Below, piece after piece: positions 2,829 to 47,107 of a stretch of 49,078 bases of DNA. The notes below the pieces were generated by a model. The model did not search any database. It saw nothing but the letters and a program-made list of their open reading frames with translations, and was not told where the DNA came from. The stretch is from positions 1-49,078 of IMG/VR virus record IMGVR_UViG_3300021085_000050; one strand, given 5' to 3'. The number at the start of each line of letters is the position of its first letter. Position 1 is the first letter of the stretch. Source of the DNA: a virus. Made by a program: the position numbers and the translations under genes.

Positions 2829-2944
2829 ATCTTTTTTTACCTTAGAATGCGATTATGGCTAGACAAACCAAAGAAAATGTGTTATAATAAACCAACGGTT
2901 TCATAGAGAGGGATGGTATTCAAACTTTGCTTCTAATGTAATTC

Positions 2945-2986: not shown

Positions 2987-2999
2987 GGTATAATAACTA

Positions 3000-3749: not shown

Positions 3750-3812
3750 ATAAACACTTGCGCTTCAGGTTTCTTCCTCCAGAATTTTAATCTATTCATA
3801 AACATCTTTATT

Positions 3813-5905: not shown

Positions 5906-5932
5906 TGTATAGATATATCCAAGGAGTTAGTT

Positions 5933-8103: not shown

Positions 8104-8406
8104 TTATTCTTCTCCGCACCATGTCTTACATTGTCGCACAGTTCTAGTTTCATCTTTCCATGACTCAGGTAAAGTCTTAGTAAACCACTCACTGTTGATT
8201 ATATCTCTCATATCATTAGTATGTATATTATATTTTTCTTTATTATCATTATATTCTTTCATTACAACTTGAGTGTTTTTTAAATCTTCTTTTCCTTCAA
8301 CACTATACTGATATTGTAAATTACCTAGATAACAACAAGGGTAAACTTGACCATCTGGATTAACAAGTAGCCTATTAATTTGTTTCCACTTACATTTGAT
8401 ATTCAT
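8104..8406 (-). CDS. SPASM/twitch-like auxiliary cluster domain, separate from its radical SAM core
   Basis: A 100-residue protein that looks like the C-terminal half of a radical SAM enzyme. CKWKQINRLLVNPDGQVYPC has Cys5, then GxxxxC ending at Cys24, followed by Cys25, and QCKTWC near the C-terminus supplies two more cysteines. This is the pattern of SPASM or twitch domains that hold an auxiliary iron-sulphur cluster. The ATG at 8404-8406 lies 17 bases inside the end of the radical SAM gene, in the +1 frame. I infer that the two chains form one enzyme, made by coupled re-initiation or possibly by frameshift. A sequencing or real indel is the alternative. Confidence 0.65.
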   Translation of the reverse strand: MNIKCKWKQINRLLVNPDGQVYPCCYLGNLQYQYSVEGKEDLKNTQVVMKEYNDNKEKYNIHTNDMRDIINSEWFTKTLPESWKDETRTVRQCKTWCGEE

Positions 8407-10298: not shown

Positions 10299-10301
10299 AT
10301 G

Positions 10302-11225
10302 TTACACTTGGTATATTCTCAAATAATGGGTTGCAGCTGTAATAGCAGAACCAGCTGGGAATTCTTGAGTACGATAATCATCAGCACTAACAAGTCTTGT
10401 GTTGTATGATGAACTATTAAGAATAGTATTAGTCATACCTGAACCTCTAACATTACCAGCACCGTTAAGTCTATATCTAATTCTTGAACCAGATACTTGT
10501 GATGCAACATGTCTTACACAATTTTTTAATATAGCATCAAACCCTGCAGTAGAATATTGTTGAAGATTTTTATCTGCATTTCTTACAAATACTGGAACAG
10601 TATAGCTTACAGCACTTCCAGAGTTAGTACGGAACAAATAGTAATTAGTTATAGTAGTTGGCTGATCTTGAGTTTCTGGAATACTACCTGATGTATAAGC
10701 ACCAGTATTTGCTCTTGTATCAGAATATACAGGTGAGCTACTTATTAGTGTATGATTACTTAGAGATGTTGCTGTATGAATACGATATGTGCCAGGCTGA
10801 TCTGTACCATTAGTTAAAGTATCTATAGACGGATATATAAAGGTATCATACATATCAGTAAGAGTCATAGATTGAATATTACCGCTATTATTAAACACTG
10901 GAAAGGCTACACTATTGGTATCAGCAGTTTCTGATGTATTCTCTTGAGATGAACTAATACGAGCTATGTTAACCGTAACTGTAGACACATTAGGTGTTTC
11001 AGCTTCTGTATCAAAGTTAGTTACATCTGTTGTAGAAGCACCAGCTTGTAATCTTGTATCAGTAATAGTTCCTAAGTTACCACCAGATGATACACGAGAT
11101 AAATCAACAGAAGGATCAGTACCGTAAAGGTATCTAACCTGATTCTTAATATTGTTTATATCAGTTGTACTCATCTCAATGAGATTATTACTCCCATCAA
11201 GTTTAAGTGGTGTTCTAACAGCCAT
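10302..11225 (-). CDS. Virion structural protein, baseplate/fibre region
   Basis: A 307-residue protein starting MAVRTPLKLDGSNNLIEMST, with VRYLYGTDPSVDLSRVSSGG and a polar, Ser/Thr/Asn-rich body. This N-terminal pattern is familiar from structural proteins near the baseplate genes of cyanomyoviruses. There is no signal peptide or membrane segment. It lies four bases after the fibre gene at 11230 on the same strand with an AGGAAG site, so it belongs to the baseplate operon. It may be a connector such as gp9 or gp11, but I cannot align it with either. Confidence 0.55.
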   Translation of the reverse strand: MAVRTPLKLDGSNNLIEMSTTDINNIKNQVRYLYGTDPSVDLSRVSSGGNLGTITDTRLQAGASTTDVTNFDTEAETPNVSTVTVNIARISSSQENTSETADTNSVAFPVFNNSGNIQSMTLTDMYDTFIYPSIDTLTNGTDQPGTYRIHTATSLSNHTLISSSPVYSDTRANTGAYTSGSIPETQDQPTTITNYYLFRTNSGSAVSYTVPVFVRNADKNLQQYSTAGFDAILKNCVRHVASQVSGSRIRYRLNGAGNVRGSGMTNTILNSSSYNTRLVSADDYRTQEFPAGSAITAATHYLRIYQV

Positions 11226-11229
11226 TTAC

Positions 11230-12318
11230 TTAACTTCCTGCACCATACAATGTTTTTACTGCTGTACCTGCACTGTTATATATTATTAAAGAAACAACGC
11301 TTTTTAATTCTGCTGAACTAATTGCATCATCAGCCATCTTAGCTTCTGTTATTGCATTACTACCAATTTTATCAGATGTAACAGCACTAGCTGCAATCTT
11401 ACCTGATGTAACAGCATTACTAGCAATCTTAATTTCCGTTACTGCATTACTTGCAAGATGTTCTGGATCAATTGAACCATCTGCATAGTGTTCTGAGTTA
11501 ATTACACTATCAGCTATCTTTGATCCGTCTATAGCATCACCCACAATCATTGCACGTGCTATCTGAACTTCTCCAATAAGACCTGCACTTGTTGATCCTA
11601 ATACTCTATTTGCTGTTACTAAGTTTTGTATTTTAGCATATGTAACTGCATCGTCTGCAATCTTAGCTGTAGTAACTGCAGTGTTATTAATCTTATCTGT
11701 TGTAACTGCGGAGTTATTAATCTTAGCTGTAGTAACAGCCGAACCATTAATCTTAATAGAAGTCACTGCATTTGTTGCTAATTGTGTTGCAGCTACTCCA
11801 GCCGTTTTAATTGTTACATCACCAGACGTAACACTAAAGTTTCCTGTATTAAACTTAGCAATACCTTTATTAGTTGCTGTAGCATCTTCACCTGATATAG
11901 AACCTGAAGAAATATCAATACCTTCTCCTGCCGAGATAGCACTTCTGATATTATCATTTGTTACTTTATCAAAAGAGTAAGCTCCAGTTCCATCAAAGGA
12001 GAGTGTACCAAAACCTGTTCCAGTATTAGATGCAGTAAATATATTAACAATCTCATCAGAGTCAACACCTAGGAGTCTGACTTCATTAATAGCTGCAACT
12101 AAACTTCCTTTAGCTGTTGTTATTAAGTCTCCTAATGAACCAGCTACTGCTTCTGCTGAATCTATTTCAGAGTTTAGTGAATTAATAGCTTGAACTATAT
12201 CACTGTCCTGCCCTGATGTTGATAAAAGAGATATATCACCGACATCATCTGATATGTCGTTGATCTTGTTCTTCATATCTAAAATATGATCTGTTATATT
12301 TACGTGAGTTCTTGCCAT
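11230..12318 (-). CDS. Tail fibre protein with decapeptide repeats
   Basis: A 362-residue protein in three parts. Residues 1-90 are helical with heptad-like spacing (a probable trimeric coiled coil). Residues 131-172 hold the GEGID/GEDATATNKG module shared with the fibre at 771-2204. From about residue 177 onward a ten-residue repeat of the form NxAVTTxKI runs through residues 177-230 and 261-340. Such repeats form trimeric beta or mixed shafts in phage fibres. The short C-terminal end (VVSLIIYNSAGTAVKTLYG) may be a tip or a docking site. No adhesin head is visible, so another protein may carry receptor binding. Confidence 0.7.
   Translation of the reverse strand: MARTHVNITDHILDMKNKINDISDDVGDISLLSTSGQDSDIVQAINSLNSEIDSAEAVAGSLGDLITTAKGSLVAAINEVRLLGVDSDEIVNIFTASNTGTGFGTLSFDGTGAYSFDKVTNDNIRSAISAGEGIDISSGSISGEDATATNKGIAKFNTGNFSVTSGDVTIKTAGVAATQLATNAVTSIKINGSAVTTAKINNSAVTTDKINNTAVTTAKIADDAVTYAKIQNLVTANRVLGSTSAGLIGEVQIARAMIVGDAIDGSKIADSVINSEHYADGSIDPEHLASNAVTEIKIASNAVTSGKIAASAVTSDKIGSNAITEAKMADDAISSAELKSVVSLIIYNSAGTAVKTLYGAGS
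11299..11790 (-). repeat. Tandem 30-base coding repeats (decapeptide fibre shaft)
   Basis: The fibre shaft is encoded by imperfect 30-base repeats in register with codons, giving units such as NSAVTTDKIN and SNAVTSGKIA. The array has two blocks, 11629-11790 and 11299-11538, separated by a non-repeated stretch. Copy-number change by slippage could alter fibre length. Confidence 0.7.
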
Positions 12319-34861: not shown

Positions 34862-34894
34862 AAAAAAAGGGCGGAGAATAAACCCCGCCCCTTT
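34861..34894 (-). terminator. Rho-independent terminator between gp29 and gp32
   Basis: Read on the minus strand, CCGCCC/GGGCGG pair (34885-34890 with 34869-34874) around an AT loop, followed by eight T. This is a strong intrinsic terminator for gp32. From the plus side the hairpin is followed by only CCTTT, so it is a weaker terminator for gp29. Confidence 0.85.
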
Positions 34895-34911
34895 AAGATA
34901 TTTAATTAATA

Positions 34912-35832
34912 TTAATCTTCGGCTGCAAGACGGGCAAAGTATGACATAGTGTCATCAGTACCTGTACTCTCCATAGCCTCTGCCGTTACTGGCTCCACAG
35001 CTGCCGCAAAGGCAGGTGCTTCAGAAGCAACCGGAGAAGGTGCTGCAGAAATTGTTTCTAACTCTTCACGAGCTTGAGTTGTCATAGTGCTAGTACCTAA
35101 CACTTTATTCAACTTAGCTTTTAACTCATCATATGATTTATAGTTCTTAGGATCAGAGAATTCTGTTAGATCATGTAACTTGCCATAAATCTCTTCCAAT
35201 TCACTTTCATCTGAAGACAAAGCACTTGCTGATGCAAACTCAGACTTGTCATAGTTTCGGTAACCTTCTACTTGACGTATCTTTAGTTTAAAGTGTGCAC
35301 CTTCCCAAAAATCAAATGGGTTGATAGGTGATTCATCTGCAAACTGTGGCTGCATAACATCCATGATTTTATCAAAGATTTTCTTACCGAACTGATATAA
35401 CACAATCTTACCTTCATTAGCAGGATTAGCTGGATCAGAAACAACCATTGCATTAACTACATAGTGTAGTCGCCGCTTTTGTTTACGAACTATTTCTTTA
35501 TTCGAGTCAATACCCGAGTTCCAGAGTTCTGAGTTATGCTCAGACACTGGGTCTTGCTGACCAATTGAAGTCAATGATTTTTCTATGTACCACTGACCTG
35601 TTGGTCCTTTGAATCCATGATCCCAATAACGGACCCATGGTAATTCAGAACCTTCGGTTGCTGGAAGAAAGCGAAGTACAGCATAGCCATTACCTGCTTT
35701 ATCCACCGTTGGTTTCCAAACACGATCATCACCATAATTTTTCTTACCACCGCCACCGGCGCCAGCGGCATCTGCGGCTGAGATAAGTTTTGAGATTTGA
35801 TCACGATTACGTTTTAGGTTTGCAAAAGACAT
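34912..35832 (-). CDS. 32: Single-stranded DNA binding protein gp32
   Basis: A 306-residue protein (T4 gp32 has 301). The basic N-terminus (NLKRNRDQISKLISAA) fits the cooperativity region. The core carries KAGNGYAVLRFLPATEG, WVRYWDHGFKGPTGQWYIEK, DPVSEHNSELWNSG and KIVLYQFGKKIFDKIMDVM, all typical of gp32. The C-terminus is acidic with an Ala/Pro/Glu linker and ends MSYFARLAAED, as expected for the protein-interaction tail. There is no cysteine at all, so the T4 zinc site (three Cys, one His) is absent. It has its own host-type promoter upstream and a strong terminator downstream. Confidence 0.9.
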   Translation of the reverse strand: MSFANLKRNRDQISKLISAADAAGAGGGGKKNYGDDRVWKPTVDKAGNGYAVLRFLPATEGSELPWVRYWDHGFKGPTGQWYIEKSLTSIGQQDPVSEHNSELWNSGIDSNKEIVRKQKRRLHYVVNAMVVSDPANPANEGKIVLYQFGKKIFDKIMDVMQPQFADESPINPFDFWEGAHFKLKIRQVEGYRNYDKSEFASASALSSDESELEEIYGKLHDLTEFSDPKNYKSYDELKAKLNKVLGTSTMTTQAREELETISAAPSPVASEAPAFAAAVEPVTAEAMESTGTDDTMSYFARLAAED

Positions 35833-35878
35833 TTATATTTTTCCTTATGTTTTTATATTGCTGAAGTATTACTGTAAT

Positions 35879-35907
35879 ATCATACTATATTTTCGGCTCA
35901 ATGTAAA
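35879..35907 (-). promoter_or_regulatory. Host-type (sigma70-like) promoter for gp32
   Basis: On the minus strand, TTTACA (35902-35907), 17 bases, TATGAT (35879-35884). It is placed between gp33 and gp32, 46 bases upstream of the gp32 ATG. Confidence 0.65.
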
Positions 35908-35911
35908 CCCT

Positions 35912-36145
35912 TTATTCTTCAAAAGGTAAACTATTTTGCCTAGGGAGATAGTTCAAATTCATAGCTTCTCCCTCTAGTTTCTCAACGATAACACCGTTGA
36001 GAAATTTCTTTACATCTTCGGGCTCAATGTTTGTTTCTTCACAGACATCTATCACTGCATCCATGTAGGATAGCTTTTTGCCAAATACGGTAGTTTCTAC
36101 CATACGAGAGAATTTACTTTTATTCAAGAAAACTGCTTCACTCAT
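35912..36145 (-). CDS. 33: Late transcription co-activator gp33
   Basis: A 77-residue protein (T4 gp33 has 112). SEAVFLNKSKFSRMVETTVF, SYMDAVIDVCEETNIEPEDV, and LNYLPRQNSLPFEE match the short gp33 proteins of marine T4-like phages. gp33 binds the RNA polymerase flap and, with gp55 and the clamp gp45, drives late promoters such as those in this window. It is coupled by ATGA to the gene before it (36142-37266). The gp32 promoter begins just after its stop, so gp33 and gp32 are partly independent. Confidence 0.75.
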   Translation of the reverse strand: MSEAVFLNKSKFSRMVETTVFGKKLSYMDAVIDVCEETNIEPEDVKKFLNGVIVEKLEGEAMNLNYLPRQNSLPFEE

Positions 36146-37266
36146 TTATCCATAGCCCTTAATATAATTGTTTCTTTATTTAGTCTTCCATTAGGCACCT
36201 CTGTTTTAGTAGTCAGAGTTCCCCACATCTTATTAATCTGATTAGGTGTTTTACCTAAAGCAACTGGGAGGACTTCAGAAGGTTTTCTGATCTTCGTCAT
36301 CCTTGATTCATCAAGATCAAAACCTTTTAAGGTAGTTCCCTTGACTTCAAACCCAGTTGCTTTACGGCTTACATATTCGGTCAGCTGTTTATATTTAGTG
36401 TTAAAGGTATACAATCTCATAGCACCAACAACCATCATTGGGTGTATTGACTTGATCTTATATTCTTTAGACTCCAACAAGAACTGCATCTTAGCTACTT
36501 GTTTATCTGCACTCTTAACTCTAGGTTTGCGAGGTGCACGTGTAGCTTTTTTGCTCATGATGTACTTTTGCGCATCATCTATAATATGCTGAACGAATTC
36601 CAGATATTTCTTTCTAGCACGTGCTGGTACATTTTCATAACCCTCAATCAGATCAGGGGTCTTTTTTGTAACCAACTCATTGAGTTCATCACGCAATGGT
36701 GTGTAGTAAGAAACAACTGCACTAGCTGTCGACTGCGGATAGGCATCTTTAGTCAGTTCGTCATATACAGAATACTTCATCTGAACTTCATGTTTATCGT
36801 CAAAGTATGCATCAAGAATATTCTCAATGCCGCCAATAAACTCAGATGTTTTTTCTTTTATGATCTCAGCTGGTGTTTTGCGAGGTTTAATTGCTACATC
36901 AACATTCTCTTCCTTAGCCTTTAAGGCTTTATTACCTAATACAGTAATATATTCAAAGAATGTTTCCAGTGCTGCTTTTGCATTCCAATTGGGAGGGAAA
37001 TCATGCCCTTTTTGCTCCCACAAAATAGTAGAAGCAATAAAGTGCTTGGGTGTAAAAGCATATTCTGGTGCAGCAAGATAGACCCGCTGGGTAGGCTTAT
37101 CAAACGTAGCACGAATATAAGTTTTGATAAGAGATGCAATATCTTTCTTATCTACTTCCATTCGAATGTATTCATTAAAGTTACGAAAGTTATTTTCAGG
37201 TGCAGCACCAAAACCAGTTTTCTTACGTGCTCTTGGTAGCGCCTTAGTCTTTTTCTTAACAGCCAT
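36142..37266 (-). CDS. Conserved protein of marine T4-like phages, unknown function
   Basis: A 374-residue basic protein. I start it at ATG 37266 because GGAG lies eight bases upstream; the open frame extends 13 codons further without a ribosome site. The N-terminus MAVKKKTKALPRARKKTGFG is strongly basic. RVYLAAPEYAFTPKHFIAST and later GYENVPARARKKYLEFVQHI, then SADKQVAKMQFLLESKEYKI, are distinctive but match no domain I know. It ends coupled to gp33 and near gp32, so a role in DNA binding, replication or late transcription is plausible. In T4 the gene at this place is gp59, the helicase loader, which it does not resemble in size (217). Confidence 0.6.
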   Translation of the reverse strand: MAVKKKTKALPRARKKTGFGAAPENNFRNFNEYIRMEVDKKDIASLIKTYIRATFDKPTQRVYLAAPEYAFTPKHFIASTILWEQKGHDFPPNWNAKAALETFFEYITVLGNKALKAKEENVDVAIKPRKTPAEIIKEKTSEFIGGIENILDAYFDDKHEVQMKYSVYDELTKDAYPQSTASAVVSYYTPLRDELNELVTKKTPDLIEGYENVPARARKKYLEFVQHIIDDAQKYIMSKKATRAPRKPRVKSADKQVAKMQFLLESKEYKIKSIHPMMVVGAMRLYTFNTKYKQLTEYVSRKATGFEVKGTTLKGFDLDESRMTKIRKPSEVLPVALGKTPNQINKMWGTLTTKTEVPNGRLNKETIILRAMDK

Positions 37267-37293
37267 AATATATCTCCGTTTGATTATATAACT

Positions 37294-37322
37294 ATTATAA
37301 CACATATAAAAACAAATGTAAA
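37294..37322 (-). promoter_or_regulatory. Early, host-type promoter (TTTACA-17-TATAAT)
   Basis: On the minus strand, TTTACA at 37317-37322, a 17-base spacer ending TATGTGT, and TATAAT at 37294-37299. The spacer end gives an extended -10 (TGT-TATAAT). It lies 27 bases upstream of ATG 37266 and fits the consensus shared with four other promoters here. Confidence 0.8.
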
Positions 37323-37345
37323 GTGTTTTCTTTACTTTTTTTAAT

Positions 37346-37546
37346 TTATTTTTTATATGGGTGTAAAACTATTTCGCCATTTTCGTCCCAGTTATGTTTA
37401 ACAAAGCCTTGTTCACAGAGGTACTCAATTGTATCACTAACAATTTCGTCACGTGATTTTGAAAAGTAATTCTTATGAATATAAAATCCACATGCAGCAC
37501 AACCAATGCCGTATAGTAGTGTCAAAATATTCTCATCAATATACAA
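37346..37546 (-). CDS. Small protein with a membrane segment (hypothetical)
   Basis: About 66 residues. The best start is TTG 37546, seven bases after a perfect GGAGGT; the ATG five codons upstream has no ribosome site. ENILTLLYGIGCAACGFYIH (residues 5-24) is a single hydrophobic segment, probably a membrane anchor. The remainder is polar and ends ENGEIVLHPYKK. It is one of several small genes of unknown role upstream of the 37266 gene. Confidence 0.5.
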   Translation of the reverse strand: MYIDENILTLLYGIGCAACGFYIHKNYFSKSRDEIVSDTIEYLCEQGFVKHNWDENGEIVLHPYKK

Positions 37547-37573
37547 TGTAAGTACCTCCATTTAAATTATTAT

Positions 37574-37831
37574 TTAGCTACAAGAAAAGGATACAACCTT
37601 ATCTAATCTGAAAGACCTCCAGCCTTCAGCCTTAACATCATACACAGGAAGAACTTCTTCGTTAATATTACGAACTTTCTTTTGTGTGATACTATCACTT
37701 TTAGTAGCAGCGGGAATAATATCAGAACGTAGAGTACACATCATATCACGTTCATCACCATTCACTTTCTTAAAAATAACACGACACGTGTTAGTCTCAA
37801 GTTGTTCAATCATTTCACTTCTAGTTATCAT
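37574..37831 (-). CDS. DUF2693-like small protein
   Basis: An 85-residue protein. CRVIFKKVNGDERDMMCTLR, IIPAATKSD and VYDVKAEGWRSFRLDKVVSF match the pattern of a small SH3-like family common in T4-like phages (DUF2693 by memory): a strand with KxxGxxRxMxCTL, then the DxxxxGWRSFRxD strand. The function is unknown; the fold suggests nucleic acid or protein binding. It is one of a run of small early genes. Confidence 0.6.
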   Translation of the reverse strand: MITRSEMIEQLETNTCRVIFKKVNGDERDMMCTLRSDIIPAATKSDSITQKKVRNINEEVLPVYDVKAEGWRSFRLDKVVSFSCS

Positions 37832-37841
37832 ATAATATTCC

Positions 37842-38072
37842 TTATTTTAAGTGGTATGTTCCTTGAGGTAGTTCCCAAGCTTTCATAAGTTTGCGGTACA
37901 TCTCCGCAGTCATTCCAATTACATTAAAGTTGTTTTTATCTTCCTCCCATTGTCTAATAAAAGCATCACCATTCTCAGTAAAGTGTACAGTAACATCCTC
38001 AAACTCTTCAGTATTATCAAGAATTGTTACAACAGTTTCGTTATACTGGTGATCATGTTCAATTGTAAACAT
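37842..38072 (-). CDS. Hypothetical small acidic protein
   Basis: A 76-residue protein, beginning MFTIEHDHQYNETVVTILDN and ending LMKAWELPQGTYHLK. An N-terminal beta-hairpin region is followed by a helix (FIRQWEEDKNNF, AEMYRKLMKAW). There are no recognised motifs. Its start shares one base with the stop of the preceding gene, so it is translated with it. Confidence 0.5.
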   Translation of the reverse strand: MFTIEHDHQYNETVVTILDNTEEFEDVTVHFTENGDAFIRQWEEDKNNFNVIGMTAEMYRKLMKAWELPQGTYHLK

Positions 38073-38404
38073 TAGCTTCCCATCTTTGATACTTCTATTG
38101 CTTGATCCTTATTAAGAATAGGAACAGCATTAGATTTGTGCATAGTAGCAATACCTTTAATAAGAGTACCGGTATATTTTTTACCTTCTATCTTAGCGCC
38201 ATTACCAGCAACTTTATCAGAAGTCATTCTAGGACCGGTATTATAATCAGGTATCTCAGTACGATACTCCGTCTTAGGTTTATCTTTAATACCCATTGAC
38301 TTTAAGAAGGCTTCGTGTTTTTCTTGAGCTTTCTTCCAGCCTGGGGCTTTCTTTCTTTTAGATTTACCATGGACTTGAACGCCCTGTATCATGTGCATAC
38401 TCAT
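38072..38404 (-). CDS. Hypothetical basic protein behind a structured RNA leader
   Basis: About 110 residues. I start at ATG 38404, six bases after GGAG; a TTG four codons upstream is less likely. The protein is Lys-rich (HGKSKRKKAPGWKKAQEKHE), with AFLKSMGIKDKPKTEYRTEI and GRMTSDK-like polar stretches, and no known motif. The ribosome site lies at the base of a long RNA helix at 38415-38504, so its translation may be controlled by that structure. Confidence 0.5.
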   Translation of the reverse strand: MSMHMIQGVQVHGKSKRKKAPGWKKAQEKHEAFLKSMGIKDKPKTEYRTEIPDYNTGPRMTSDKVAGNGAKIEGKKYTGTLIKGIATMHKSNAVPILNKDQAIEVSKMGS

Positions 38405-38414
38405 ATAAATCTCC

Positions 38415-38640
38415 AAACTATTTAAAGTAGCGCCTCAGAAACAACAAAAAGGAAGTGTACTTTTAGGCTATGCCCTCCGTACGAGACGCTAGTTAAAATA
38501 GTTTTCGTGGGAGAGACTTTCCTGCAGCGCCTCTCCCCTTATCTGCATTATCGTTAGCAGCTAACGTCCGGGTTTCTATTCGGTACCGGCTGTCTATACC
38601 CACCTAACAAAACCTTGTACATTGGCAGTTAGGTTTTTCG
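38415..38640 (-). ncRNA. Structured RNA element, unidentified (5' leader or small RNA)
   Basis: A region of about 230 bases without a gene, locally rich in GC and stem-forming sequence. Read on the minus strand, 38496-38504 pairs with 38415-38423 (9 bp) and 38483-38491 pairs with 38428-38436 (9 bp with one G-U). Together they make one long interrupted helix whose 3' side touches the GGAG of the next gene. The G-U pair would be a mismatch on the plus strand, so the minus RNA is favoured. Further stems are GGGAGAG/CTCTCCC (38509-38515 with 38531-38537), a 6-bp triloop hairpin (38552-38566), and ACCTAAC/GTTAGGT (38602-38608 with 38628-38634). The octamer AGCGCCTC occurs twice (38429 and 38526), so the partner at 38483 could choose between two helices. 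It is not a tRNA. Confidence 0.5.
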
Positions 38641-38653
38641 ATAATAAATGAGA

Positions 38654-38923
38654 CTAGTCCCAATCGTTATCGAATTTTGTAGTCTCCCGCATTGTATCAC
38701 CATAATACTGATCAGCATACTTAGATGCATCAGTCCATTGGTAGATATTCTCACGATATGCAGGCTCTTGCATTACATTAGTCTTACGAACAACAGGTCT
38801 AGCATTAACAGTTCTAACCTGTTTAGCAGATGCTTTTTTAAGTTTAGCCATTTTATTGCGACGGTCGCCAATCTTTTTGATAAGAGCTAAACGGTCTGCT
38901 TTTTGAGTTGATGTCATAGTCAT
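38654..38923 (-). CDS. Hypothetical basic protein
   Basis: An 89-residue protein. The N-terminal half is basic and helical (MTSTQKADRLALIKKIGDRR, MAKLKKASAKQ); the C-terminal half is polar and acidic (QWTDASKYADQYYGDTMRET). No motif is recognised. A clear early promoter lies upstream at 38955-38983, and an inverted repeat overlaps that promoter. Its stop is followed by the structured RNA element, which may be in the same transcript. Confidence 0.5.
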   Translation of the reverse strand: MTMTSTQKADRLALIKKIGDRRNKMAKLKKASAKQVRTVNARPVVRKTNVMQEPAYRENIYQWTDASKYADQYYGDTMRETTKFDNDWD

Positions 38924-39832: not shown

Positions 39833-40453
39833 TTGAATTATGAAAGATTATTATCCTTTGGTGATATACTAGAATTAAATATACAATGTGATCCATATAA
39901 ATTATTAAATGAGACTAAACCCTATAAATGGTTAAAATATAATCCACGTAAAGATATAAAAAGATATGGTCTCAGCTTAACATCACTCACAGGAGAAATT
40001 GATGGTATTGACCTTGACTCTATCTATGAATATAATAGAGTAAATAATGTAAATTTAGATGAGACAAGTTTTACAGAACTAACTGATATATATTATAATA
40101 GCTCAGAAGTTCGTAAGATTATGGATCCTTGGGTTGATACAGGTTTAGGTAGAAGTCATATTATACATCTACCTCCAGGTGGTCACTTCCCACCACACAG
40201 AGACTTATCACACTTTGAAGAGGATCAGAAAACTTTTAGAGTAATAGTTCCATTAATAAACTGTAACCCTGAGCAAGCATATTTTATGTATGAAGATAAA
40301 CCTTTACATTTTAAACACGGTAAAAGTTATTTTATGAATACAAATAAAATGCATAGTGTGTTTTCTATGTCAGACTGCTATCTTATAGTTCTTAATGTTT
40401 TTTATAATGACGATAATGTAAAAGAGATTTTATCTAATTTAGCATATAATTAA
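39833..40453 (+). CDS. 2-oxoglutarate/Fe(II) oxygenase, Asp/Asn beta-hydroxylase-like
   Basis: A 206-residue protein starting at TTG 39833 with AAGG nine bases upstream; no in-frame ATG is near. SHIIHLPPGGHFPPHRDLSH holds H122-x-D124, FRVIVPL gives R136 for 2-oxoglutarate, and NKMHSVFSMSDCYLIVLNVF gives the distal H174. This is the cupin-type iron triad of aspartyl/asparaginyl hydroxylases. Unlike its relatives, it has no arginine just after the distal His (residues DCYLIV). It is the only member of the oxygenase cluster on the plus strand, and its end overlaps the minus-strand gene at 40434 by 20 bases. The substrate is unknown. Confidence 0.65.
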   Translation: MNYERLLSFGDILELNIQCDPYKLLNETKPYKWLKYNPRKDIKRYGLSLTSLTGEIDGIDLDSIYEYNRVNNVNLDETSFTELTDIYYNSSEVRKIMDPWVDTGLGRSHIIHLPPGGHFPPHRDLSHFEEDQKTFRVIVPLINCNPEQAYFMYEDKPLHFKHGKSYFMNTNKMHSVFSMSDCYLIVLNVFYNDDNVKEILSNLAYN

Positions 40454-40952
40454 TATCACCCTTATAAAAAACATACTGTTCATTATTAGGATATATTACA
40501 GGAATCTTTTCTGGGTGAATATGCCAATCATTAAATATATCTGATCTACCTTTTTTTAATCTATTAAAGAAACCTTTACTCTTATCTCTGGTCCATATTA
40601 TTAATGGATAGTGAGATATTCTATCAAGACAATATTCAAGTTCTAAGAAGTTATCTATTTTTTCAAGCAAATCTTTACCATCAGTTCTTTGAAATGCAAA
40701 ATATCTTGACTGAACTCTTATTGTATTCTCATTTACTATTTGACAACCAGACATTAATATTGGTTTTGTTCCTTCAAATACAAAGTTAAACATTACCATA
40801 TCTTCAAGATGAAGTCTATTTGTTTTATAATTTTCTTGAAGTCTATCCACAGATTGTTCTGCAAGTAGTAAAGCCTTTTCACACAATAGAATATCATCAT
40901 AACTAAGATTTGTATTTTTCTTACCACCTATAATGTAAGGCAAAATCTTCAT
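40434..40952 (-). CDS. Hypothetical protein ending the oxygenase operon
   Basis: A 172-residue protein. The start at 40952 is supported by GGGAGAG five bases upstream, though it overlaps the preceding gene by 32 bases. MFNFVFEGTKPILMSGCQIV, IRVQSRYFAFQRTDGKDLLE, HYPLIIWTRDKSKGFFNRLK and then NDWHIHPEKIPVIYPNNEQY form an alpha/beta pattern vaguely like a GNAT acetyltransferase, but no acetyl-CoA motif is seen. It is the last gene of the operon. Confidence 0.5.
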   Translation of the reverse strand: MKILPYIIGGKKNTNLSYDDILLCEKALLLAEQSVDRLQENYKTNRLHLEDMVMFNFVFEGTKPILMSGCQIVNENTIRVQSRYFAFQRTDGKDLLEKIDNFLELEYCLDRISHYPLIIWTRDKSKGFFNRLKKGRSDIFNDWHIHPEKIPVIYPNNEQYVFYKGDINYMLN

Positions 40953-41412
40953 GGAGTCTCTCCCAATTAAAATCTTTAAAGTAAAATGATACTTGTATAA
41001 AAAATCTTTCTACATTCATATCATCTATAAAATGTGGTATCTTTGCATGTGGCATTGTTGGACATCTATATTGATGTGTATGTATTATTGATTCCTCATT
41101 AGATATGTCAGATAAGAAATGTATATTATAATGTTTAGGGTCAATAGGTATAATTAATACAGCATCTCTATCTGTGTCTATATGTGGTTTTATATAATAC
41201 TCTGGAAGTTTATGTGTTAGCCATGCTTGAGGTGGTTCTCTATAATCATATGATATAGATGATAATTCTGGTAACTCTATCTTATAATTGCGAACACCAT
41301 TCCACACATCATCTGGTTTGTTTAGATCAATAGTTTTTATATCAAAATCAACTCTAAACTTAGGAAGTTCAAGTATGAAACATTTTTCCTGATCTGTAGT
41401 GATTAACGACAT
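40921..41412 (-). CDS. Putative 2-oxoglutarate/Fe(II) oxygenase (paralogue of next gene)
   Basis: About 163 residues. The start is at ATG 41412 or 41415, with GGGAG just upstream, inside the end of the preceding gene. YYIKPHIDTDRDAVLIIPID has H77-x-D79, HQYRCPTMPHAKIPHF has H112 and H117, and ERFFIQVSFYF has R126. These are the iron and 2-oxoglutarate positions of the cupin oxygenases. HQYRCPT and the closing KDFNWERL align with HQYRCPT and GDINWEF of the upstream gene, so the two are tandem paralogues. This copy is about 40 residues shorter and may have a reduced fold. Confidence 0.6.
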   Translation of the reverse strand: MSLITTDQEKCFILELPKFRVDFDIKTIDLNKPDDVWNGVRNYKIELPELSSISYDYREPPQAWLTHKLPEYYIKPHIDTDRDAVLIIPIDPKHYNIHFLSDISNEESIIHTHQYRCPTMPHAKIPHFIDDMNVERFFIQVSFYFKDFNWERLHEDFALHYRW

Positions 41413-41977
41413 CATTAAACTCCCAATTAATATCTCCAAAGTTTACTCTGAAAGAAAGCATCTTACGTTCCCTTCTTTCTTCTACAGCATGAGGGTGTTT
41501 AGTATTTAAGAAAGTAGGGCAACGGTACTGATGTCTAAAAACTTCCTTATATTCGTAATCGAGACCATCTTCATATGGTCGTCTGTAAAAGTCTGTATCT
41601 AATTCTTCCATTCCTTCTTCACACTTATCAACATAAACAATATCATAATCAAGAGGTGCTATAGGATAGATTAAAACCACATTTCGACCAGGTGCATTAT
41701 CAATATGAGGTCTCATCCATTTACCCTCTGCCTTTACTGTTAGGTAAGGAGTAATGTCTGTTCCTTCGTCAACATATTCTCTGTTGATTCTATTAATTGC
41801 AGATTGAATTCTAGGATCATTATTAGTTCTATACCATTTTTGACCATCCCATGATCTTTGATCATCACCTAGTAATTCACCTTTAAGGCTCCAAAGTTCT
41901 TCTCTAGGAGGAAGCCAGTCAATTAGTTCAGGCACTTCTATAATATATTGGTTTACTATCTGATCAGTTATTTTCAT
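41369..41977 (-). CDS. Putative 2-oxoglutarate/Fe(II) oxygenase
   Basis: A 202-residue protein. KWMRPHIDNAPGRNVVLIYP has H91-x-D93, then HQYRCPTFLNTKHPHAVEER gives H161/H163, and RKMLSFRVNFGDINWEF gives R171. The order and spacing fit a double-stranded beta-helix dioxygenase. An N-terminal segment (IIEVPELIDWLPPREELWSL) precedes the core. The start overlaps the peroxiredoxin gene by 14 bases, the end overlaps its paralogue by 44, so all three are probably co-translated. The substrate is not predictable. Confidence 0.65.
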   Translation of the reverse strand: MKITDQIVNQYIIEVPELIDWLPPREELWSLKGELLGDDQRSWDGQKWYRTNNDPRIQSAINRINREYVDEGTDITPYLTVKAEGKWMRPHIDNAPGRNVVLIYPIAPLDYDIVYVDKCEEGMEELDTDFYRRPYEDGLDYEYKEVFRHQYRCPTFLNTKHPHAVEERRERKMLSFRVNFGDINWEFNDVVNHYRSGKMFHT

Positions 41978-42395
41978 CAGTTATATCCTCATATATATCT
42001 GTAAACCATGGTTCATTAAATTTTTTTACTAACTGATTATCTCTTATTAGATATGCAAATCTTTTACAAGTTTTACCCATAACATCTTCCCACGTACCAG
42101 ATATTTCAGAAAGTGTTTCACAAAATATACCTAAAGGATCTGCTACACAATCTATATCAGAATGACCATACTGTTCGTTCCATGCAGCCATTGTATATGG
42201 AGTTTCTACTGATATAAAAACAACTTTATATTCTGGTAGTTTATTAATGTTTGCTGCAAACTCTGGTAAATGTTTATCAGTACATGTTGGGGAAAAAGCA
42301 GCAGGTATTCCAATAAGTATAACATTACCTTCAGGTATATTATAAGTATCTGGTTTTCCGTTTATGATCTTATAAAGTGGTGAACTGTTTATCAT
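41964..42395 (-). CDS. Peroxiredoxin (Prx5-type, 1-Cys or atypical 2-Cys)
   Basis: About 143 residues from ATG 42395 (42404 is possible; AAGGA lies upstream). GIPAAFSPTCTDKHLPEF is the peroxidatic motif with P31, T37 and C38; FISVETPYTMAAWNEQYG and DPLGIFCETL match the conserved Prx5 strands, and GKTCKRFAYLIRDNQLVKKF gives R112. These enzymes reduce peroxides using a thiol. C73, C82 and C110 could resolve the sulphenate. A phage-encoded peroxiredoxin is unusual. Here it sits among iron oxygenases, where it could remove peroxide formed by uncoupled turnover. Confidence 0.8.
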   Translation of the reverse strand: MINSSPLYKIINGKPDTYNIPEGNVILIGIPAAFSPTCTDKHLPEFAANINKLPEYKVVFISVETPYTMAAWNEQYGHSDIDCVADPLGIFCETLSEISGTWEDVMGKTCKRFAYLIRDNQLVKKFNEPWFTDIYEDITDENN

Positions 42396-43074
42396 GTAAT
42401 ACATAATCCTTATATTTGTCCATAGATTTTTTAAGAAGTTGTTGATGTTTAGGTATATCAACAACCCCAGACATAACTATTAAAGCTCGTTGATCCATTG
42501 TAAAACCTCTATCTGTACCGTGTTCCCAAACTGATCCATCATACACATATGTATTAGTCTCCTCTGGTAATACAGGATAAACTTTAGTTGCTCCTGAATC
42601 TTTACTCATATAGAAAATTTCTTCATCTGGTTTTGTTACATTTGACCAACGTATTCTATACTGAGAAGGTGCGCTATCGGTTAAATGTGGAGTCATATAG
42701 ATAGGTTCATCATAATGTGGTGGTGTTATACCAGGAGGTTGAACAAATGCACATTGTCTCATTGTTTTAAAAGGCAGTTGATCTATAAAGTTACACAGTT
42801 CTGGTACTTCACTTTTAGCCCAATCAAACCATGGAGCATCACCATCTATCTGAGTGTACATATTCTTTTTTAAGAATAGAACTCTACCTACAGCTATTGT
42901 ACCTGCTGTAGTTCCTTCTTCCATTTTAGGATCAGCCCATAAAGATTTAATGTGTTCCAAATCCATATCAATGCGAGGCATATCTATAGGTGTGTAAATA
43001 GCATCTTGATAACCTTTGTATTCATTATGGATCTGTAAATGATCATAGTCTGGTCTATCATTATGTGGATCCAT
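42370..43074 (-). CDS. 2-oxoglutarate/Fe(II) oxygenase, Asp/Asn hydroxylase-like
   Basis: About 234 residues. I use ATG 43074; the open frame reaches a TTG at 43173 that overlaps the preceding gene and lacks a ribosome site. CAFVQPPGITPPHYDEPIYM has H120-x-D122, VYDGSVWEHGTDRGFTMDQR has H185, and R196 precedes ALIVMSG. This is the complete iron/2-oxoglutarate set of a cupin hydroxylase. A region of about 100 residues before the core is unlike other members here. The end overlaps the peroxiredoxin gene by 26 bases. Confidence 0.7.
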   Translation of the reverse strand: MDPHNDRPDYDHLQIHNEYKGYQDAIYTPIDMPRIDMDLEHIKSLWADPKMEEGTTAGTIAVGRVLFLKKNMYTQIDGDAPWFDWAKSEVPELCNFIDQLPFKTMRQCAFVQPPGITPPHYDEPIYMTPHLTDSAPSQYRIRWSNVTKPDEEIFYMSKDSGATKVYPVLPEETNTYVYDGSVWEHGTDRGFTMDQRALIVMSGVVDIPKHQQLLKKSMDKYKDYVLHDKQFTTL

Positions 43075-43120
43075 ATTTACATACTTACGTTTACTAACAT
43101 CAACTGTTCTTTTTTCTACT

Positions 43121-43744
43121 CTATATCGTAACGTCAAGGATAAGTCGCCTTCCTGCAAATATCTCACAATCAACTAAAACTGACTCAATAGTATATTCTG
43201 TATAGTATTGATGCAAATCTTCGGTAATTGTATTTAGTATAACTTTATCGTCCCAGTGCTTCTGATCATGATATGGTTCTTGTATAATAGCTTTCTTTGC
43301 TCCATAGAAATTCATAACCCATTTAAAGAATTCAAAATGATCTTCTCTATATAATAACACTCCACTAAAAATAACCATATCAACATCAAAATCTACAAGA
43401 AACACTTCAGTGTCATTCCAGCTTTCACATCTAAATTCTATATTACTATGATCTTTCCAATTGTTTCTAGCAATATCTATAGGTTCTTGAGATGTATCAA
43501 AGCCCATATATTTAAAATCGTGTGTTAGATAATCTAATACTGGACCATGTCTACAACCAACATCGACAATACCTTTAGATTGATTTGATGTAATTATATC
43601 AGCTTGAGTTTTAAATATTGGTGAAGCCGCTTTAGTATCTAAGTACCACATATCTTCAAATTTATAATCTTCCTTTAGAGGAACTTTTACATTCTCTTGA
43701 CTAAAAGATCCTAAATCTGGCCATGGAATATCTACCATATCCAT
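43121..43744 (-). CDS. SAM-dependent methyltransferase (class I)
   Basis: A 207-residue protein. GIVDVGCRHGPVLDYLTHDF is motif I with the glycine loop, KYMGFDTSQEPIDIARNNW gives the acidic residue of strand 2, FDVDMVIFSGVLLYRED is motif IV, and the end forms the usual strands (TIESVLVDCEIFAGRRLILD). It resembles small-molecule or protein methyltransferases and not DNA methyltransferases, since no DPPY/NPPY motif is present. The start overlaps the preceding oxygenase gene by 13 bases, so it belongs to the same operon. Confidence 0.75.
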   Translation of the reverse strand: MDMVDIPWPDLGSFSQENVKVPLKEDYKFEDMWYLDTKAASPIFKTQADIITSNQSKGIVDVGCRHGPVLDYLTHDFKYMGFDTSQEPIDIARNNWKDHSNIEFRCESWNDTEVFLVDFDVDMVIFSGVLLYREDHFEFFKWVMNFYGAKKAIIQEPYHDQKHWDDKVILNTITEDLHQYYTEYTIESVLVDCEIFAGRRLILDVTI

Positions 43745-44292
43745 ACCGCAAAACTATATCTATTACCTTTTGTAATAGGAAGAACCTGATGAGGATATAA
43801 AAAGTTAGATGGAAATATTAATGCTTCACCTGCTTTTAATTTAATCTTTTCCTCTTCCCAAAACTCTAATTCGCCGCCTTCATAGTTATCATTTAATGCA
43901 CCTAGAACAGTAAGTGTCGGTATACCTCTCCTTGTACCATCAAATATATTTCTAACATGATCAGCATGAACTCCCATGCCGTCAGAGCCAGCAGGATACT
44001 TTATCCAAAAAAACCTTGTTTTTCCATTCCAATATGAAAACCAAGGTAAATCTTTTAAGAATACATTGATATAACTGTCTACTGCCTTGGATATAATATC
44101 ACTTAAATTAGGAAAATCTGCTTCTGTAACTTGATATGGTAATGAAGGATTATCTTGAACACAAATATTCTCAGGGCCAGCATAATTAAAATCTTTCCAG
44201 TTTGTCTGATCTAATTCTTTTATTGTTTGATCGGCTTGTTTGGAAGATATAAGCTGTATTCTTTGTACATAATCTTTTAAATTTAATTTCAT
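43732..44292 (-). CDS. 2-oxoglutarate/Fe(II) oxygenase, prolyl-hydroxylase type
   Basis: A 186-residue protein, the clearest oxygenase here. GMGVHADHVRNIFDGTRRGI has H109-x-D111, TLTVLGALNDNYEGGELEFW is the GGEL/F strand of prolyl 4-hydroxylase-like enzymes, LKAGEALIFPSNFLYPHQVL gives H168, and KGNRYSFAVWIW gives R178. Such PiuC/P4H-like proteins occur in several marine myoviruses. The start is coupled by ATGA to the aminotransferase gene. Possible substrates are prolines of proteins or small molecules. Confidence 0.85.
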   Translation of the reverse strand: MKLNLKDYVQRIQLISSKQADQTIKELDQTNWKDFNYAGPENICVQDNPSLPYQVTEADFPNLSDIISKAVDSYINVFLKDLPWFSYWNGKTRFFWIKYPAGSDGMGVHADHVRNIFDGTRRGIPTLTVLGALNDNYEGGELEFWEEEKIKLKAGEALIFPSNFLYPHQVLPITKGNRYSFAVWIW

Positions 44293-45107
44293 ATCATATC
44301 ATCAAATAAAGGTGTTAAACATATACGAGCAACATCATCAACTCGTCTCCGTCTTGTATAATATCTATCTGTGGTAGTAGCTAAGTAAAAGACATCTGAT
44401 GGTGTTAAATCATATTCTTTACATAACTCCAACTGTTTATCTCTATACTTATTGTACATGGTATCCACAGAAAAGTTATTCATTATTAATTGCATAGTTC
44501 TAACACCACCATAGTTCCAGTTCTCATATTCTTTTAATCTGTGTAATGTTGGATGCGGTTCTTTTGTATAAACTAAGCCTAATCTTTGACCAACTAGACC
44601 AAACCCTTTAGAGAAAGAAAAGAATACCTGTTCTGTACGTTTAGGTATATTAATAGTTTTTATATCAGTTGAACTAACATATGTACAATCAAGTATCACA
44701 GGCTGTTCAGCATCAGAATGTAATATATTACCTGTTGCTGCAGAAGGATTAGAAAGATATAAAGGTTGATCTAAAACCTTTGTACCTTTTCCACCAATCA
44801 TATTAGCATATTCATATTCACCTTTAGGTATCTGCCACTTTCTATTTTCCGTAAGTGACCAATGATGTATAGCGTCTGTTGCTCCGTGAGTATAATAACA
44901 ATATGGAAAATCTGATAGATCAATCATAGGGCTTACCCAATGCCTATGAGTAGATTCGACGTGATCCAATTCTCTGGTTGCTTGTCCAGAACCTCTGCTA
45001 AAATATGTATCTGCTACTGTCTGAGCTAATAGTAATATTTCTACAGCTTTAAAACGAGGTACATTTACATATGGGAAGTTTCTTAATTCAGATTTTCGAA
45101 TAGTCAC
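44289..45107 (-). CDS. Compact PLP-dependent aminotransferase (fold type I)
   Basis: A 272-residue protein with all cofactor signatures of class I/II aminotransferases. YYTHGATDAIHHW (G75-T77) is the phosphate-binding turn, LSNPSAATGN gives N120, VILDCTYVS gives D140 and Y143, FFSFSKGFGLVGQRLGLVY gives the Schiff-base K167 and R175, and ARICLTPL gives R261 for the substrate carboxylate. It is much shorter than the usual 380-420, lacking most of the C-terminal domain loops, yet no key residue is lost. The start is GTG 45107, six bases after GGAGAG, overlapping the TauD-like gene by 20 bases. It probably transfers an amino group to a 2-oxo acid or aldehyde, perhaps an oxygenase product. Confidence 0.75.
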   Translation of the reverse strand: MTIRKSELRNFPYVNVPRFKAVEILLLAQTVADTYFSRGSGQATRELDHVESTHRHWVSPMIDLSDFPYCYYTHGATDAIHHWSLTENRKWQIPKGEYEYANMIGGKGTKVLDQPLYLSNPSAATGNILHSDAEQPVILDCTYVSSTDIKTINIPKRTEQVFFSFSKGFGLVGQRLGLVYTKEPHPTLHRLKEYENWNYGGVRTMQLIMNNFSVDTMYNKYRDKQLELCKEYDLTPSDVFYLATTTDRYYTRRRRVDDVARICLTPLFDDMI

Positions 45108-45885
45108 CGGCAGCTCTCCATAACATACGGTCTCCCATCACAGGTGTTCGTCTGTGCAGAGAAGTCAATTGATCCATTAAAAGCATATCACCTTTTTGGA
45201 AGATATGATGTGTCTGATACTTGCTCTGAAAGATAATAGGCTTTAATCTTTCTATAAGTTCATTATGGTCTATGCGAGTTGTTCCAAGCCATGCTTTACA
45301 TATAAAATGATATGGAAAGTAAAAGTAATACTTATCTGTATGAGGATGTCTACCAACTAGTGGTCGAATAGAACCTTTGTTCTTACTCATAAACTCAAGT
45401 TCTGGATCTTCATCATCTAACGCATACATTGTATTGTTTTTAAATTTAAGACGTATTCTTACATTTTTAAAATACTCTTGATCCTCTTCAGATAAGTCAT
45501 AGAAAGGATCTGAGGTATTACATATAGATAATGTAGTATTAGGATCACCTTCTACACAATAAAGGCTGATTAATATCTTATCTATTTTGTTCCTGCTATT
45601 ACCATTAGAATGCCATCCTAATTCACCACCACCGAACATACCAATTTTCTTACCAGAGTCATCTCGTTTATCAGTAACATAAAAAAGTTCTGGCACTTCC
45701 TTTGAATTCATAAACAACTCATGTCGTTCAAGTTCTCCAAAGCCTTTCATATAGTCAATATAAGATTGCTCTGTAAATTCTTGATCGTAAAATATTTTAT
45801 GACCCTTTACTTGTACTTCACGTGCAATAGGCCAAAGGTGTGATCTATTATAATACTGGTTACTATCGCAAGTCATCTGTACCAT
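45088..45885 (-). CDS. TauD/TfdA-like oxygenase with altered iron site (HxN)
   Basis: A 265-residue protein. The fold follows TauD/TfdA and clavaminate-synthase-like enzymes: GGELGWHSNGNSRNKIDKIL, GRHPHTDKYYFYFP, GDMLLMDQLTSLHRRTPV, and DRMLWRAAGD at the end. The distal histidine H244 and the 2-oxoglutarate arginine R257 are present. The first motif reads H92-S-N94, where family members have HxD or HxE. Asn could still hold iron or could leave room for a halide, or the enzyme may be inactive. It overlaps both neighbours (23 and 20 bases). Confidence 0.7.
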   Translation of the reverse strand: MVQMTCDSNQYYNRSHLWPIAREVQVKGHKIFYDQEFTEQSYIDYMKGFGELERHELFMNSKEVPELFYVTDKRDDSGKKIGMFGGGELGWHSNGNSRNKIDKILISLYCVEGDPNTTLSICNTSDPFYDLSEEDQEYFKNVRIRLKFKNNTMYALDDEDPELEFMSKNKGSIRPLVGRHPHTDKYYFYFPYHFICKAWLGTTRIDHNELIERLKPIIFQSKYQTHHIFQKGDMLLMDQLTSLHRRTPVMGDRMLWRAAGDYSKI

Positions 45886-46474
45886 CCAAACTAAACATTA
45901 AAGCAATACGTGGCTTATCACTCATATTTACAACTGCATGAGGATACCCTATATTTAGAAAATATGCATTACCACACTTCAGATTATATGCTTCTAACTT
46001 GCCGTCACGTTTAAATAAATTAATAGTATTACTGTCTCCATATATTGGTACAATACACCTTACTGCATATGATACATCATAGTCTACATGGAATGGAATG
46101 GTTTTACCTGGTGCAAGTTTAGTAATACGAATACGACTTGCCGGCGCTTTACATTGTGTTACTACTTTTTCAATGTAAGAATAACTATAATCATCTGTAG
46201 GTACATTATATAAATGTTCTTCTCTGCGTCTTAATCTTTCTTTAATAGATGATGTATGAGGTAATACTTCAGATGGCGTTGTAAGATTAATCTGTTCAAA
46301 ATTATCATAGACATCTTTTACAAGGTCTTCATGATTCATACATAGGCCAGGATTAGCTGTTCTTACATCAACAAACTTATCTTCGCCGTGAAGCATATCG
46401 CAGTTTTTTCTTAGTTTATCCAAATCAATATTAATATTCAATTTCATAATTGTTGGTAATTGATTTTTCTTCAT
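45863..46474 (-). CDS. 2-oxoglutarate/Fe(II) oxygenase, Asp/Asn beta-hydroxylase-like
   Basis: A 203-residue protein. KLAPGKTIPFHVDYDVSYAV has H129-x-D131 and R139; CGNAYFLNIGYPHAVVNMSD has H179, and KPRIALMFSLDG gives R189. This is the full set for the Asp/Asn hydroxylase family. AAAGGA lies six bases before the ATG, and the ATG directly follows the stop of the desaturase gene. It leads the oxygenase series. The similarity in order and spacing to the plus-strand gene at 39833 suggests a common origin. The substrate is unknown. Confidence 0.75.
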   Translation of the reverse strand: MKKNQLPTIMKLNINIDLDKLRKNCDMLHGEDKFVDVRTANPGLCMNHEDLVKDVYDNFEQINLTTPSEVLPHTSSIKERLRRREEHLYNVPTDDYSYSYIEKVVTQCKAPASRIRITKLAPGKTIPFHVDYDVSYAVRCIVPIYGDSNTINLFKRDGKLEAYNLKCGNAYFLNIGYPHAVVNMSDKPRIALMFSLDGTDDLR

Positions 46475-47107
46475 CTATTTTCCTTTAACAAATAATCTTT
46501 CAGCAATCCATCCTGCTGTATCATATCTATGTAGTCTTATTTTTTTAAAGTTATCATGATGATTTTTATGATATCCTTCACCTGCAATAAATAAATTTAA
46601 CCATGGTACATTTGAAGGACCATTACTATGACCTACAGTATTTAATAAACCAAATCCAATCTTAGCAAAGATAAACGGTACAAGAGCAAATGATATAAAG
46701 AAATATGGAGAGATGATGTAAGATATAGCCCAAACAGAAATTAATATTTTAAGCCAATGATTATGACAGAATACTAATTTTGGATTTTTATATAAGTCTC
46801 TTGCATACTTTATAGGTATTGTTGGTATCGTCCAAGTTGTGGTTAATACTTTTAAATAACCTACATGTTTAGGAGCATGAGGGTCTTCAGGTCCATCACT
46901 ATGAGTATGATGCATTCTATGAGATGCAATCCAACCAATAGGTGTTCTAATACATGCTATCATTAGCATTGCTAATCCCATTGTCTCAAACCACCCAGGC
47001 ACTTTAAATTGTTTGTGACAATAATATCTATGTAATAATATGGAAGCACCAAAGTGTGATATGACTTGTGACCATATTAATCCAATTACTATTGACGTTA
47101 GAAGCAT
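46475..47107 (-). CDS. Membrane fatty-acid desaturase (Delta9-type)
   Basis: A 210-residue membrane protein with the three histidine boxes of acyl desaturases: HRYYCH (H26, H31), HRMHH (H63, H66, H67) and GEGYHKNHH (H180, H183, H184), plus H150 in GHSNGPSN. Four hydrophobic segments lie around residues 1-20, 44-60, 120-135 and 136-152. It is shorter than bacterial enzymes (about 280-320), mainly at the ends. Such enzymes use a di-iron centre and oxygen to place a double bond in acyl chains and could change membrane fluidity. It lies upstream of, and adjoins, the oxygenase operon. Confidence 0.85.
   Translation of the reverse strand: MLLTSIVIGLIWSQVISHFGASILLHRYYCHKQFKVPGWFETMGLAMLMIACIRTPIGWIASHRMHHTHSDGPEDPHAPKHVGYLKVLTTTWTIPTIPIKYARDLYKNPKLVFCHNHWLKILISVWAISYIISPYFFISFALVPFIFAKIGFGLLNTVGHSNGPSNVPWLNLFIAGEGYHKNHHDNFKKIRLHRYDTAGWIAERLFVKGK

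Follow-up and report, generated by a model that had tools for sequence, protein, structure and literature searches.

Metabolic gene clusters are already known as a kind in phages, and several described systems come close to the one reported here. The host-recognition cluster of pelagimyophages is a hypervariable island of T4-like genomes for which lipopolysaccharide (LPS) genes and radical S-adenosylmethionine (SAM) cassettes are reported, as well as, in freshwater phages, fabF, a stearoyl-CoA desaturase and a 2-oxoglutarate (2OG) oxygenase (PMC7029224). Two co-isolated cyanophages are reported to encode an acyl carrier protein (ACP), an ACP synthetase, two asparaginyl beta-hydroxylases and a TauD dioxygenase, a combination unique in that set of phages (Sullivan 2010, PMC3037559) and possibly a related idea. 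The 2OG oxygenases known from other pelagiphages pair with ferrochelatase, which is a different association (PMC9599517). Here we describe a cassette of twelve genes, A to L, at positions 39833-47107 of the IMG/VR virus record IMGVR_UViG_3300021085_000050, whose 49,078 bases are called the window below. The literature searched, which covered subscription papers in part, describes neither this gene set nor its fixed core and distribution, nor the TauD-family protein with His-x-Asn (HxN) in place of HxD that it includes.

Aminolipids are modified by hydroxylation or methylation of an amino-acid lipid. In pathways of the ornithine-lipid type, the acyltransferases are OlsB and OlsA (PMC11631085). 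The cassette would be similar in outline, with an N-acyltransferase followed by hydroxylation or methylation, but it has no OlsB/OlsA match, adds an aminotransferase and a desaturase, and is phage-encoded. Unlike the cassette, the pelagimyophage cluster is a genome region rather than a defined enzyme set; the passages on it (PMC7029224) leave the four-gene core undescribed, and in the window the cassette lies elsewhere.

Gene content and the four-function core

Of the cassette proteins, A, C, D, F, H, J and K resemble 2OG/Fe(II) oxygenases, seven in all, and the other five are I, G, E, L and B:

A, 39833-40453, + strand: Asp/Asn-hydroxylase-like 2OG oxygenase, convergent to the operon (weak Asp_Arg_Hydrox match, HxD...H motif)
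B, 40434-40952, - strand: predicted GNAT-fold acyltransferase, representing one of three alternative GNAT families in the core (AlphaFold model and PDB matches)
C, 40921-41439, - strand: 2OG oxygenase-like paralogue of D, probable start near 41415 (HxD...H...R)
D, 41369-41977, - strand: 2OG oxygenase-like protein (H91-x-D93...H163...R171)
E, 41964-42464, - strand: peroxiredoxin, probable start near 42395 (Redoxin and PHROG peroxiredoxin matches)
F, 42370-43173, - strand: 2OG oxygenase, predicted double-stranded beta-helix (motif and model)
G, 43121-43744, - strand: SAM-dependent methyltransferase (Methyltransf_25)
H, 43732-44292, - strand: prolyl-hydroxylase-like 2OG oxygenase in the slot directly before the methyltransferase (2OG-FeII_Oxy_3)
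I, 44289-45107, - strand: small HisC/CobD-like pyridoxal phosphate (PLP) aminotransferase, core gene (invariant catalytic residues, weak PDB matches)
J, 45088-45885, - strand: TauD-family protein, HxN replacing HxD (TauD match)
K, 45863-46474, - strand: Asp/Asn-hydroxylase-like 2OG oxygenase, the best-conserved core gene (Asp_Arg_Hydrox)
L, 46475-47107, - strand: SCD1-type membrane desaturase, core gene (FA_desaturase and 4ymk matches)

Searches with I and K gathered about a hundred viral loci, many of them fragments, in which protein families were delimited by simple linkage of BLAST matches. After removal of redundancy there were 60 distinct K loci, most from the K search alone, and 18 of these extend at least 7 kb to either side of K (hereafter complete loci). 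L and I were present in all 18, although the presence of I and K is partly selected by the way the loci were collected. Every complete locus also contained exactly one of three GNAT families (gnat8 in five, B in seven and f41 in six). The fixed core consists of L, K, I and one GNAT, which is B in the window, and the other genes are interchangeable.

The accessory genes vary among the complete loci: J or a paralogue was found in 14, a flavin mononucleotide (FMN) reductase in 10, G, E and the further oxygenase family o7 in nine each, F in seven and a KedN5-like B12 radical SAM enzyme in six. Across the cassettes, variable genes include TauD oxygenases, hydroxylase-methyltransferase pairs or fusions, FMN reductase, peroxiredoxin, radical SAM enzymes and others. 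Gene order is shuffled among loci, and the number of genes from the listed 2OG families that lie within 10 kb of K ranges from 2 to 11 per complete locus. The KedN5-like protein (f48) was seen in cassettes with GNAT type f41 (L030, L037, L038, L040, L061, L072, L076 and L077), and the two always occurred together in complete loci. Some cassette islands additionally encode a Sulfotransfer_2 protein (7e-7) or a sulfotransferase-like protein without a Pfam match (L062 10603-11154, L028 9394-10008).

Pairwise distances co-vary for most cassette genes, consistent with inheritance as one unit; those of I follow L well. K, the best-conserved gene, is found in about 60 nonredundant viral contigs and in one isolate, Pelagibacter phage Mosig, and this recurrence excludes a chance association. 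The initial annotation, made from the letters alone, had proposed a joint undescribed phage pathway, to be checked by a search for the same gene neighbourhood in other phages. That proposal is supported by a set that recurs, appears co-inherited and looks phage-specific, and neither of the two results that it had named as speaking against a joint pathway was obtained. Its count of seven oxygenases is likewise borne out, as oxygenase-like proteins, by Pfam, motifs and a model of F, J being the member that lacks the iron-binding carboxylate, as are its methyltransferase, peroxiredoxin and desaturase by Pfam, PHROG and PDB matches. Its aminotransferase has invariant catalytic residues and weak family matches. 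B (40434-40952, predicted GNAT fold) was not named in it.

All twelve open reading frames (ORFs) are confirmed at these positions of the window, A on the plus strand and B to L on the minus strand, with intergenic gaps that never exceed 2 bases. The overlaps between neighbouring genes that had been pointed out earlier are real at most junctions (4-32 bases, including 13 bases between H and G). However, the long ones (E/F 95, F/G 53 and C/D 71 bases) depend on upstream TTG starts, L and K adjoin without overlap, and A is convergent to B-L. Start codon choice is uncertain for C, E and F; relatives of E measure 143 amino acids, which suggests a start near 42395. The gene block has a GC content of 32%, versus 34% elsewhere in the window. 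A precursor gene for a ribosomally synthesised and post-translationally modified peptide inside the operon was rejected, as the short gaps from L to A leave no room for one. The late-promoter motif TATAAATA had 12 matches versus 12.6 expected, and sigma-70 and terminator scans were at chance level.

Spread among phages

The phage of the window is marine and T4-like, the latter as seen in Pfam and PHROG searches from its gp32 (6e-42), T4_baseplate (5.6e-57) and wedge subunit (6e-125), and its cassette adjoins the gp32 region rather than a tail-fibre island. Among 50,697 phage records, only Mosig (EXVC030M, MT647606) matched K, L, J or I. Its cassette, Mosig_00072-00081, resembles that of the window in having two Asp_Arg_Hydrox proteins, a desaturase, an aminotransferase, a peroxiredoxin, a TauD protein, a methylase and an acetyltransferase. 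It differs in that an FMN reductase and o7 replace C, D, F and H, in gene order, and in its location beside tail fibres. The Mosig genes are annotated one by one, and the genome announcement leaves the cassette as a pathway unmentioned (PMC7892664). At 34864-38719, Mosig (L012) also has a distinct 2OG cluster of four oxygenases with a ferrochelatase, beside a heme oxygenase and a phycocyanobilin:ferredoxin oxidoreductase. The left end of the window has a second enzyme-rich stretch with a Nol-like carbamoyltransferase (4601-5905, PHROG 1601, 7e-72), and the Mosig island likewise holds a carbamoyltransferase.

A scan of 84,980 prokaryote species genomes for K, based on short peptide patterns, identified one contig, in a Paceibacter metagenome-assembled genome. 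On this 8.6-kb piece the same cassette is accompanied by a DUF6267 protein, and the contig looks viral. The cassette therefore looks phage-specific, with no genuine bacterial owner found in the genomes scanned. Contigs with a K 81% identical to that of the window carry a T4-type gp23 but no detectable relative of the window gp32, and Mosig and the window share 53% identity in gp32 versus 69% in K, 77% in L and 64% in J. Judged from these sequence comparisons, the cassette has probably moved between distantly related T4-like phages.

Enzyme families and active sites

The iron-binding HxD...H was kept in relatives of all six oxygenases other than J (A, C, D, F, H and K), while Pfam matches exceeded the cut-off for H, J and K and were weak for A. 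K matches Asp_Arg_Hydrox above the cut-off (2.4e-6), conserves H129-x-D131...H179...R189 and is 58-100% identical among the full-length matches listed. A falls under the cut-off of the same family (5.9e-4), with H122-x-D124...H174 conserved in 34 nonredundant relatives. H matches 2OG-FeII_Oxy_3 (5e-14) and PHROG 61 (1e-28) and has the HxD...H...R motif. C, D and F matched no Pfam family. Relatives of C and D conserve H91-x-D93...H163...R171, and the two share 32% identity over 121 amino acids, as seen in a relative. When profiles were compared, K against C/D and C/D against o7, the metal motifs aligned but the probability was low (3-4%), so common descent of these oxygenase families is not demonstrated.

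F has H153-x-D155...H218...R229 invariant among its relatives. A double-stranded beta-helix fold for the oxygenases had been the structural expectation of the initial annotation, and F is predicted to adopt it: an AlphaFold model of moderate confidence (pLDDT, the predicted local distance difference test, of 73) matched PHD2, prolyl-4-hydroxylase (P4H) and AspH in the PDB, with PHD2 and P4H as the best matches (probability 0.97-0.99). Sequence searches of the PDB with K, F and B gave nothing useful.

J matches TauD (PF02668, 7e-18) over most of its length, and solved TauD-family enzymes match its profile. Of 81 J sequences, 80 contain LGWHSN, in which HSN aligns to the HxD of the solved enzymes and no HxD/E carboxylate is present. 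Paralogues of J nearly all have His-x-Asn as well, with one (L022) that retains HTD. Halogenases that lack the carboxylate have HxG (PMC12346261), and AspH binds iron by two histidines only (PMC10947486). J resembles these enzymes in being without the iron-binding Asp/Glu, but differs from them in having Asn, not Gly or Ala, at this position, and in doing so within a TauD-family protein.

L matches FA_desaturase (6e-10), and its closest match is the structure of acyl-CoA desaturase 1 (4ymk, E 6e-18). Its H26, H31, H63, H66, H67, H160, H180, H183 and H184 are conserved and N156 is nearly invariant, positions that we take to be equivalent to the diiron-site ligands of SCD1. In I, the PLP lysine K167 as well as D140, R175 and R261 are invariant among 40 relatives; its Aminotran_1_2 match is weak (13.5 bits versus a cut-off of 19.7), as are its PDB matches to HisC and CobD-type enzymes (1e-3). 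B is predicted to have a GNAT fold, since its AlphaFold model (pLDDT 87.9) had 52 PDB matches at E <= 0.001, and those shown were all GNATs. Between the GNAT types, common descent is only suggestive for B and f41 (E 0.0023) and none was demonstrated for gnat8. Of the accessory enzymes, G matches Methyltransf_25 (5e-7) and weakly a tRNA methyltransferase family in PHROG, and E matches Redoxin (7.5e-9) and a PHROG peroxiredoxin (4e-15), with the peroxidatic Cys61 invariant in 17 relatives.

A candidate pathway and its rivals

Besides the altered iron site of J, three observations bear on the chemistry of the cassette. G is fused behind a TauD-like 2OG oxygenase in L008 to L010, and, in L006, L007 and L011, behind an unrelated protein on which Pfam is silent and whose His/Asp pattern, on visual inspection, reads as that of a 2OG oxygenase. 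These fusions, together with H in the same slot of the window, suggest hydroxylation followed by O-methylation. Every complete locus has an SCD-type desaturase as well as a GNAT, which points to an acylated, membrane-associated substrate. Finally, a distant relative of I (34% identical) lies between desaturases on the 52,582-base viral contig IMGVR_UViG_3300013006_001903 (L104). There, eight or more FADS-family desaturases stand in tandem in an array at 83-11499, together with an ACP, a phosphopantetheinyl transferase, a ketosynthase, an ATP-grasp enzyme and the I-family aminotransferase; the array seems to resemble clusters of the acyl-ACP polyene or polyyne type. It has a counterpart at L107 1172-12588, with two more desaturase-like ORFs at L107 14397-15194 and 15747-16499. 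The array shares with the cassette an I-family aminotransferase beside desaturases and a GNAT-like ORF nearby; what sets it apart is that it encodes an ACP, a phosphopantetheinyl transferase, a ketosynthase and an ATP-grasp enzyme of its own and has no K in the stretch examined. The context of this I relative suggests an acylated or lipid-like product.

That A to L form one joint phage-encoded pathway is well supported, and we consider it likely. In such a pathway, I would produce or interconvert an amino acid or amine, which the GNAT would N-acylate with host acyl-CoA or acyl-ACP. L could then desaturate the membrane-inserted acyl part, K and the other 2OG oxygenases would hydroxylate, and G may O-methylate a hydroxyl placed by its partner oxygenase. 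The H-G pair, J with its altered iron site, the extra oxygenases A, C, D and F and the redox helper E would be accessory tailoring genes, and the pathway would yield, during infection, an N-acyl amino compound or aminolipid with these decorations. The data themselves show gene content, conservation, co-occurrence, catalytic motifs and the oxygenase-methyltransferase fusions, and point to exchange between phages. We infer the product class from the enzyme families and the L104 context, and likewise the substrates, the order of the steps and the benefit to the phage. Taken as one statement, a laterally exchanged phage cassette making a desaturated, hydroxylated, O-methylated N-acyl amino compound or aminolipid has, in our view, not quite an even chance of being right, and an N-acyl or lipid-like nature of the product is itself a tentative assignment, plausible but short of probable. 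The more far-reaching idea of a virus-only pathway, absent from cells in its present form, with a new N-acylated or lipid-like product and an HxN TauD enzyme that goes beyond ordinary hydroxylation, is doubtful.

Several points weigh against an N-acylated product made by a joint pathway. No carrier protein was detected near K, as a search with the E. coli and L104 ACPs hit only L104's own. OlsB (PF13444) matched neither B nor the GNATs of its relatives, and the twelve cassette proteins gave no match to an OlsA-type O-acyltransferase. The desaturase could work by itself on the bulk lipids of the host, and the L104 array is a distant analogue rather than another copy of the cassette. The distances of I co-vary only weakly with K and J (r 0.17), all loci were chosen through K or I, and divergent cellular relatives could escape the short peptide patterns of the prokaryote scan.

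Two other explanations are serious rivals. The targets of the cassette may be virion proteins, tail fibres among them, or molecules of the host surface, with the 2OG oxygenases hydroxylating residues that the methyltransferase, GNAT and sulfotransferases decorate, so that receptor binding is altered or superinfection blocked. The cassette adjoins tail-fibre genes in Mosig and many relatives, within the hypervariable host-recognition region known from pelagimyophages, where LPS genes are found as well (PMC7029224), and Asp/Asn and prolyl hydroxylase folds commonly act on proteins. Still, we regard such a role as unlikely, because the aminotransferase and SCD-type membrane desaturase in every complete locus have no obvious protein-modifying function, and the window cassette lies near gp32 rather than in a tail-fibre island. 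Alternatively, the product might be a diffusible amino-acid analogue without an acyl chain, acting as an antimetabolite or signal, with a small amino compound as the substrate of the desaturase and a GNAT that acetylates this compound or protects the producer. In rhizobitoxine synthesis, the desaturase-family protein RtxC acts on an amino acid, and an aminotransferase, amino-acid-type hydroxylases, a methyltransferase and a GNAT are typical of such pathways. That L is closest to acyl-CoA desaturase 1, and that the cassette holds no recognised export or peptide-assembly gene, makes this explanation an unlikely one too.

It is more improbable that there is no joint pathway and that unrelated auxiliary genes gathered in a hot spot, the many 2OG oxygenases serving chiefly to adjust 2-oxoglutarate or iron metabolism. 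Phages commonly encode 2OG oxygenases, for which a modulation of 2-oxoglutarate has been proposed (PMC3037559), and accessory genes differ widely among loci; yet four functions in 18 of 18 complete loci, the fusions, overlaps and correlated divergence argue otherwise, and 2-oxoglutarate tuning leaves the fixed core unexplained. Modification of DNA, tRNA or nucleotides, which the initial annotation had proposed alongside small-molecule and amino-acid chemistry, appears very improbable. Some 2OG oxygenases do act on nucleic acids, and G has its weak match to a tRNA methyltransferase PHROG. Against this, the membrane desaturase is invariant, and Pfam and PHROGs gave no nucleotide kinase, nucleotide-sugar glycosyltransferase, thymidylate-synthase-like or nucleic-acid-binding domain in the cassette proteins. 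DNA modification was set aside with zero positive evidence. Of the chemistry suggested earlier, the amino-acid or small-molecule part stays plausible, and nothing indicates nucleotides, tRNA or DNA.

Phage auxiliary genes usually mirror a host pathway. Here, a four-function core is common to dozens of aquatic phages, most of them uncultured, and no bacterial owner was found. If the cassette encodes one pathway, infected cells in the sea may form a lipid or other compound that no cell is known to make, and a concrete, testable purpose would emerge for part of the large set of 2OG oxygenases in marine phages. The HxN TauD-family proteins also offer an opportunity to find unusual iron chemistry. 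The isolated phage Mosig, which infects Pelagibacter, makes the cassette testable.

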